NCBI RefSeq assembly: GCF_003337735.1
Contig: NZ_QPJY01000006.1
Coordinates: 171,341 to 224,819 of the forward strand
Source of the DNA: Thioalbus denitrificans
GTDB lineage: Bacteria > Pseudomonadota > Gammaproteobacteria > DSM-26407
Direction: 5' to 3'
DNA: 53,479 nucleotides
Of this stretch, positions 12,569 through 14,374 are shown in pieces. The position numbers and the translations under genes were made by a program. Position 1 is the first letter of the stretch, and the number at the start of each line of letters is the position of its first letter. Below the pieces are notes generated by a model. That model was not told the origin of the DNA, ran no database searches, and saw nothing but the letters and a program-made list of their open reading frames with translations.

Positions 12569-14374
12569 TCAGCCGGACAGATCGGCGCAGACGCGGTTGC
12601 GACCGCTGTTCTTGGCCTGGTACAGAACCCGGTCGGCACGACCAATCAACGACTCCAGGTCCTCTCCGCTCCGGCGACAGGCCACGCCGGCGCTGAGGGT
12701 GATTCGCTGCCCGGCGAGCTCACCCTCGAACCGGATTTGCTCCACCGCCCGCCGGACCCGCTCGGCCATGGTGCCCACGTTATGGGCGGACTCGCCCAGG
12801 ATGAAGACCGCGAACTCCTCGCCGCCGAGACGCACGGGGAGATCGGCCTCGCGCACCACGTCACGCAACGCGGTTGCCACCCCGCGCAGCACCACGTCGC
12901 CGGTATTGTGGCCCCAGGTGTCGTTGACGCGCTTGAAATGATCGATATCGAACAGGGCCAGTCCGATGGCCGCTTTGGCATCACGGTCGTGGATGCGCAT
13001 CTGCCGCCCCACCACTTCATGCATGTACAGGCGGGTGAACAGGCCCGTCAGCGGGTCGCGGATGGAACGCTCGAAGAACTCCCGCCGCTCGATATCGAGT
13101 GTGCGGTAGAGGGCTTCCCGCTCCACCGCCACCTGCAGGGGCACGCTCATCTGCTCGGCCATCTCGTCGATGCGCTCGTCGTCCGGCAACTCGCCGTCGA
13201 GGCGGACGATGGCCACCGACTCGACCACCCCCGCCGAGGGGGCGAACAGCGGGATGAGCAACTGGTGGTCGTTCCCGCCGCCATCGCCGTCGAGGGGTTG
13301 GGAGGACCCGCGGTGCCGCCCGGACCAGGCCTTGCGATCCTGGCCCAGCACGGCACGCACTTCGGGCGGCGGCTCCACCAGCGCCCCGCGGTAGCGTGAG
13401 GCCGGCGCCAGGTGGAGGGCCTGGCCCTCCTCCGCCCGGGCATAGAACTCCAGCGAGGTGGCGGGAAGGAAGCGGCGGGCGATGTCGAGCAGGGCGGCGG
13501 CGATGTCACGGAAGTCCCGGTACAGGATCATGGCCCGGGTGATATCGCGCAGCGCGGTGTTGAGCTGCGAAAGCCGATGGATGTCCGAATCGCCGCCGGC
13601 CAGCAGGTAGAGACCGCAGTCCAGCGTCTTGACCTTCTCCATCATGAACGCCACCAGGTGCTCGGGGATGATGGAGCCGTGCTGGGGCGCGATGCGGCGG
13701 ATGGGCACCTCCTGCAGCCGGGTCAGGGCATAGTCGAGAATCTCCCGGCTCGGCATGTAGTGCTCGTGGAACGGGCGCAGGGCCTCGAAGTAGCTCTCGT
13801 CGCGGGCATAGAGGGAAAACCCCTCGGTGAACCCGCCGAACAGGTCGCTGGAGAAGAGCGTACCGGTCTGCTCGTCGTAGGTGCAGAAGGCGCCGGGAAA
13901 GTGGGCGTAGGGGGTGAAGATGAAGCGCAGCCGCCGCCCGCCGAGATCCAGCTGCCAGCCGTTGCGATCCACCAGCCAGAACGGCAGGGAGAGCCCGTAG
14001 TGCTTGAGCAGCGCCTCCGCGCGCCAGTGGGTGACCACCACCGCGTCATCCCGGCTCACCAGCTGGTCCACCAGCGGCAGGGCCGCGGCGATGTCCGGGT
14101 CCTGGTGGTGGCAGACGAAGTAGCGGATGTTGCTGAAGGGCGTGACCGCCTCGATCTTGCGCAGGGTGTGGCGGAAGGTCAGCGCCGAGCCGGGGTCGAA
14201 GAGAATCGACTGGTCGCCGTGCTCGATGAGGTAGACATGGCACTGGAACGGATCGCCGGGCTGGTAGTGCCCCACCCACCACACCCGCTCGGCGATCTCC
14301 ACCGGGCGCCCGGGATCGAGATCATCACCCATCATGTTGTAGGGCCCGTTCGTCAGCGGATACCCACCCGGCAC
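12569..14374 (-). CDS. Diguanylate cyclase with flavodiiron-type di-iron metallo-beta-lactamase sensor domain
   Basis: The protein is predicted to make cyclic di-GMP under control of a di-iron site. Residues about 20-245 are a metallo-beta-lactamase fold of the flavodiiron/ODP kind: H90-Q-D92-P-D94, H158 in PYAHFPGAFCTY, D177 in LFSSDLFGG and H232 in APQHGSI. Compared with the flavodiiron ligand set HxExDH, Glu is Asp and the last His is Ile (I95). No flavodoxin domain follows. Residues 265-425 are a helical, GAF-like linker, and 435-600 a GGDEF domain with DPLTGLFTR, catalytic GGEEF (517-521) and an intact inhibitory site RxxD (508-511). The start is GTG 14374; ATG 14335 is an alternative. 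It lies upstream of, and is co-oriented with, the gsp operon. Confidence 0.9.
   Translation of the reverse strand: MPGGYPLTNGPYNMMGDDLDPGRPVEIAERVWWVGHYQPGDPFQCHVYLIEHGDQSILFDPGSALTFRHTLRKIEAVTPFSNIRYFVCHHQDPDIAAALPLVDQLVSRDDAVVVTHWRAEALLKHYGLSLPFWLVDRNGWQLDLGGRRLRFIFTPYAHFPGAFCTYDEQTGTLFSSDLFGGFTEGFSLYARDESYFEALRPFHEHYMPSREILDYALTRLQEVPIRRIAPQHGSIIPEHLVAFMMEKVKTLDCGLYLLAGGDSDIHRLSQLNTALRDITRAMILYRDFRDIAAALLDIARRFLPATSLEFYARAEEGQALHLAPASRYRGALVEPPPEVRAVLGQDRKAWSGRHRGSSQPLDGDGGGNDHQLLIPLFAPSAGVVESVAIVRLDGELPDDERIDEMAEQMSVPLQVAVEREALYRTLDIERREFFERSIRDPLTGLFTRLYMHEVVGRQMRIHDRDAKAAIGLALFDIDHFKRVNDTWGHNTGDVVLRGVATALRDVVREADLPVRLGGEEFAVFILGESAHNVGTMAERVRRAVEQIRFEGELAGQRITLSAGVACRRSGEDLESLIGRADRVLYQAKNSGRNRVCADLSG

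Follow-up and report, generated by a model that had tools for sequence, protein, structure and literature searches.

In this analysis, we have identified a gene in the window (the whole 53,479-nucleotide stretch of the Thioalbus denitrificans genome that was analyzed) whose product is predicted to be a cytoplasmic diguanylate cyclase with an N-terminal ODP-type non-heme di-iron sensor that would alter c-di-GMP synthesis; we give this reading about three chances in four. An ODP domain, a GAF-fold linker, a signaling helix, and an intact GGDEF domain follow one another in a single open reading frame. The domains present, the invariance of the presumed metal ligands, and the pairings of ODPs with signaling proteins argue for the proposal of the first-pass annotation that an ODP-type di-iron sensor is fused to a complete diguanylate cyclase, with oxygen or redox state as the most likely input. 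We infer that the domain holds iron, that O2 is its ligand, that it signals as a dimer, and that the cyclase is active.

The reading frame lies on the minus strand, is read from a GTG start at 14374 to 12569, and encodes 601 amino acids (Table 1). Homologues begin farther in, near two ATG codons at about 14335/14332, one of which is suggested as the likely true start. The gaps to the flanking ssb-like and gspE-like genes are 169 and 296 bp, so the gene is probably its own transcription unit.

Table 1. Features of the ODP-GAF-GGDEF gene and its product (window coordinates; residue numbers are those of the 601-residue reading frame)
Feature	Coordinates	Strand	Remarks
ODP-GAF-GGDEF protein gene	12569..14374	-	601 aa, stop included; likely true start 14335 or 14332
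ODP / metallo-beta-lactamase-fold sensor domain	13613..14332	-	About aa 15-254; Pfam, PDB sequence matches, AF2 model
Motif 2, HHQDPDI (aa 89-95)	14090..14110	-	Presumed ligands H90, D92, D94; I95 replaces flavodiiron His
Motif 3 (YAHFPG), presumed ligand H158	13901..13903	-	81/81
Motif 4 (SSD), presumed ligand D177	13844..13846	-	81/81
Motif 5 (APQHG), Q231-H232	13679..13684	-	Both 81/81; Gln presumed to replace lost His ligand
GAF-fold linker with flanking helices (aa 262-426)	13097..13591	-	AF2 and fold matches
Long signaling helix into GGDEF (aa 400-438)	13061..13177	-	AF2 model, H386-424 of model
GGDEF domain (aa 438-594)	12593..13063	-	Pfam 3.9e-41; SadC 4wxw Z 26.4, 3ign Z 26.2
Active-site motif GGEEF (aa 517-521)	12812..12826	-	Intact
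RxxD inhibitory-site motif, R508-E-A-D511	12842..12853	-	R 77/81, D 78/81

The ODP-type identity of the N-terminal domain is borne out by a match to the full Pfam ODP profile (PF19583; E = 3.7e-57, aa 43 to 233, profile positions 1 to 194 of 194, 193.8 bits against a cutoff of 27.2) and by the ranking of ODPs as the best matches in both PDB sequence and structure comparisons. The closest PDB sequence relatives are the ODPs of T. maritima and T. denticola (1.8e-20 and 7.5e-16, respectively; 6qrq, 1.8e-20). Consistent with the first-pass annotation, the ligand pattern H90, D92, D94, H158, D177, and H232 is found at these positions, and a Pfam search up to E = 1 returned only ODP/lactamase and GGDEF matches and no flavodoxin domain. 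That annotation also noted Asp for Glu and Ile for the last His of the flavodiiron HxExDH motif. The substitutions are real; their reading as an anomaly is not upheld, and Q231 had been overlooked. According to a published comparison (PMC7785958), a Gln of motif 5 takes the place of the third His of motif 2 in ODPs. The solved ODPs carry HQDPDV and PQHG at the matching positions; HTEPD and PGHG stand there in a flavodiiron protein. We therefore rejected the idea that the metal site has degenerated, since D92 and I95 are hallmarks of the ODP family, are found in 81 of 81 aligned sequences, and lie in a motif whose HQDPD is shared with the solved ODPs. H90, D94, H158, D177, Q231, and H232 are likewise invariant in all 81, against a mean column identity of 55% (subset of 51 of the 81 sequences). 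Because Q231 is present and the ligand positions never vary, the presumed seven-ligand site is, as judged from sequence, complete by ODP standards. In this family, the residues around the site differ from those of the solved ODPs (FQCHVYL, HFPGAF, and SSD instead of SGD), so the affinity or the ligand may differ as well.

When 84,980 species genomes were scanned once with the ODP and linker as the query, 120 relatives were returned, of which 80 were kept (49 to 90% identical to the query). They come from Rhodospirillales, Competibacteraceae, Chromatiaceae, Magnetococcales, Mariprofundus, Desulfuromusa, Scalindua, and other taxa, and nearly all end in a GGDEF domain with GG(E/D)EF and RxxD; in a few, the GGDEF motif is degenerate. 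Matches from phyla seen solely in metagenome bins, which may be misbinned (Chloroflexota L070, Actinomycetota L127 and L135), were left out of the evidence; the Chloroflexota match resembles that of the alphaproteobacterial locus L080. The ODP-linker module was found in 30 of 48 sampled genomes of the Magnetococcales class (full-length matches), compared with 3 of 369 sampled gammaproteobacteria, a distribution that suits a role in oxygen gradients. It was also present in 14 of 39 sampled Competibacteraceae genomes and in 7 to 8 of 78 sampled genomes of the Mariprofundus class (the Magnetococcales, Competibacteraceae, and Mariprofundus group names are inferred).

We postulate that two irons would be held by H90, D92, D94, H158, D177, H232, and Q231 and that this site would bind O2 or undergo a change in occupancy or redox state. 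The resulting change of shape in the ODP dimer would be relayed by the GAF domain and the long helix to the GGDEF dimer, altering c-di-GMP synthesis, with product feedback via the RxxD site. Bound O2 takes the form of a peroxo di-ferric adduct in the one characterized ODP. If the present cyclase behaves like the hemerythrin cyclase of Vibrio cholerae, on which O2 acts negatively (PMC8846402), its active form would be the O2-free di-ferrous state, a guess at little better than even odds. Another input is a real, if lesser, prospect: the ODP domain may gate the cyclase by sensing iron availability (holo versus apo) or NO rather than O2. The paper characterizing the ODP speaks in its title of an Fe[II] and oxygen sensor, and the ODP fold is close to that of the flavodiiron NO reductases; however, O2 accounts at least as well for the occurrence of the family in oxygen-gradient bacteria, and these ligands are inseparable by sequence.

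The strongest evidence that the ODP domain is an input comes from its swapped outputs, its operons, and the ODP-domain tree. In L149 and L150, the same ODP and linker are fused to a hybrid histidine kinase that carries receiver and Hpt domains; in L106, L114, and L154, their partner is a class III nucleotide cyclase; and in L153, an ODP from the same branch is fused to a PAS-kinase. Standalone ODP genes overlap or abut PAS- or GAF-GGDEF genes (L057, L058, L166, L167) or histidine kinase genes (L158, L159, L161, L163 to L165, L172); others lie among the MCP, CheB, and CheR genes of che clusters (L170, L177, L050). In the tree, the fused ODPs form one group (100/100), within which non-GGDEF outputs arise at three places, and this group belongs to a larger branch (100/100) together with the operonic cyclase- and kinase-partnered ODPs; the chemotaxis and lone ODPs fall apart from that branch. 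The output has thus been swapped while the ODP input was kept, and because ODPs are repeatedly fused to, or in an operon with, varied signaling outputs, the domain is very probably sensory. The same pattern bears on the idea that the ODP domain is an enzyme, an O2/NO reductase or a hydrolase, merely joined to a cyclase. Its membership in the metallo-beta-lactamase superfamily and its flavodiiron structural neighbors would suit an enzyme; however, the domain is without a flavodoxin partner and in this branch is repeatedly fused to or paired with signaling outputs, and we regard this explanation as improbable. Apparent fusions in some single-domain ODP matches (L017/L048, L049, L050) were rejected as read-through of an open frame upstream of an ordinary ODP. 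One Magnetococcales genome carries two copies of the ODP-GAF-class III nucleotide cyclase fusion (L106:7944-10328, L114, L154), whose output is neither chemotaxis nor c-di-GMP.

The predicted structure agrees with this domain order. The AF2 model, which is metal free (pLDDT 88.4), comprises a metallo-beta-lactamase-fold domain, a GAF-like domain, a long helix, and a GGDEF domain. VIA-align ranked ODP structures first (Zn-ODP 6qwo, Z 31.0; peroxy-diiron 6r9n, Z 29.7), and superposition of the model on ODPs in the apo, Zn, and peroxo-diiron forms gave Z scores of 27 to 31; flavodiiron proteins, through their metallo-beta-lactamase di-iron core, reach Z 26 to 29. With the full-length model, the top Foldseek match was the diguanylate cyclase Dcsbis. 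The GGDEF domain is intact, as had been claimed: both the GGEEF motif and the RxxD site are present, and the match (PF00990) covers profile positions 2 to 161 of 161. Predicted alone (AF2 pLDDT 90.6), the linker matches the GAF fold of 3k2n (Z 13.7, rmsd 2.6, 143 aligned) and 3cit, another GAF domain (Z 12.8), which agrees with its earlier description as GAF-like, although the Pfam GAF profile finds no match in this protein and detects the domain in 2 of 52 members of the family. A single column of the linker is invariant, and its mean identity is 39%; since the linker is far more variable than the ODP domain, it is better read, on conservation, as a transmitter than as a second conserved ligand pocket. 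Were the ODP domain instead a zinc-binding structural relic and the GAF domain the true sensor, for which Zn-reconstituted ODP structures (6qwo) and the GAF fold itself could be cited, one would expect the reverse of the conservation that is seen, with its invariant presumed ligands and variable linker, and this alternative is very improbable.

The first-pass annotation, noting the neighboring type II secretion operon, further suggested that oxygen or NO could tune secretion or surface behavior, and proposed as a check to look for the same fusion near gsp genes in other genomes. The tuning of type II secretion is not supported. Among the 80 related loci, the flanks differ and no neighbor is conserved across the family; the closest relative, which is the one congeneric genome, is alone in sharing the gsp neighbor, and a pseudopilin-like gene cluster lies nearby at a single distant locus, in a planctomycete (L137). 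A conserved link with type II secretion was therefore rejected. That the protein is a dedicated regulator of this operon is the least probable of the explanations considered: gspE does lie 296 bp downstream on the same strand, likewise in the congeneric genome, but the adjacency is not common to other relatives and c-di-GMP acts in trans. Elsewhere, EF-P, EpmA-like, and EpmB-like genes flank the ODP-cyclase in 11 to 13 loci; in Competibacteraceae-type genomes (L068, L083, and about 11 more), it lies between efp and the EpmA-like gene, and the gene upstream encodes an EpmB-like radical SAM protein. A cytochrome c gene adjoins the ODP-cyclase in nine Chromatiaceae-type loci (L092:9949-10797 and eight more).

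The protein shares its fold, the HQDPD(V/I)...PQHG signature, and PF19583 with the ODPs of Treponema denticola and Thermotoga maritima (6qnm, 6r9n, 6qrq, 6qwo). The solved ODPs are separate proteins, that of T. denticola acting via a chemoreceptor, whereas here the ODP is covalently joined to GAF-GGDEF, and HFPGAF replaces their H-S-x-G-x-F near the site. ODPs fused to signal transduction domains are already known, in outline, from Muok et al. (2019) and the TREND case study (PMC7319448), published in 2019-2020; as those outlines describe them, they are of the same general kind, with an ODP joined directly to a signaling domain, and the ODP-GAF-GGDEF protein is a further member. A literature search for PF19583, ODP, or flavodiiron with GGDEF yielded no paper on an ODP-GGDEF cyclase, and no characterized fused ODP was found in the literature searched. 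Heme, flavin, and hemerythrin inputs are treated in a 2022 census of c-di-GMP sensors, from which the word "lactamase" is absent (PMC8846402). The hemerythrin-diguanylate cyclase VcBhr-DGC (PMC8846402) likewise combines a non-heme di-iron oxygen/redox input with a GGDEF output, but its sensor is a four-helix hemerythrin of a fold unrelated to ODP; the globin-coupled cyclases DgcO and BpeGReg are oxygen-responsive GGDEF proteins with a heme globin input. Flavodiiron proteins (ROO, FprA, FlRd) share the metallo-beta-lactamase di-iron core; unlike the present protein, which has HQDPDI, they are enzymes with HxExDH and a flavodoxin domain.

If our reading is correct, diguanylate cyclases that respond to oxygen or redox state would gain, with this protein, a further structural class alongside the globin- and hemerythrin-coupled ones. 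ODP-cyclases are common in magnetotactic cocci and occur in purple sulfur bacteria, Mariprofundus, and Competibacter-type bacteria; the finding would bear on how such bacteria hold their position at an oxygen interface, and the output-swapped relatives offer ready comparisons of one sensor on several outputs. More speculatively, it can be envisioned that ODP plus GAF is a modular, widely shared di-iron oxygen-sensing input for c-di-GMP, phosphorelay, and cyclic-nucleotide outputs, and that magnetotactic and other oxygen-gradient bacteria use it as a main oxygen gauge for c-di-GMP, a broad proposal that we hold only tentatively.

The T. denitrificans genome has a second, standalone ODP gene (contig C3, L056:5294-6079) with no signaling neighbor; genes resembling aprBA and sat, recognized by eye, lie near it and suggest a sulfur-oxidizing host. 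The lone ODPs at two other gammaproteobacterial loci (L182:3709-4464 and L188:5070-5690) follow a protein of about 205 amino acids that resembles a truncated chemoreceptor tip; the MCPsignal profile gave no match to one of these neighbors and a weak match to the other, and this small protein is perhaps a minimal chemoreceptor partner of the lone ODP.
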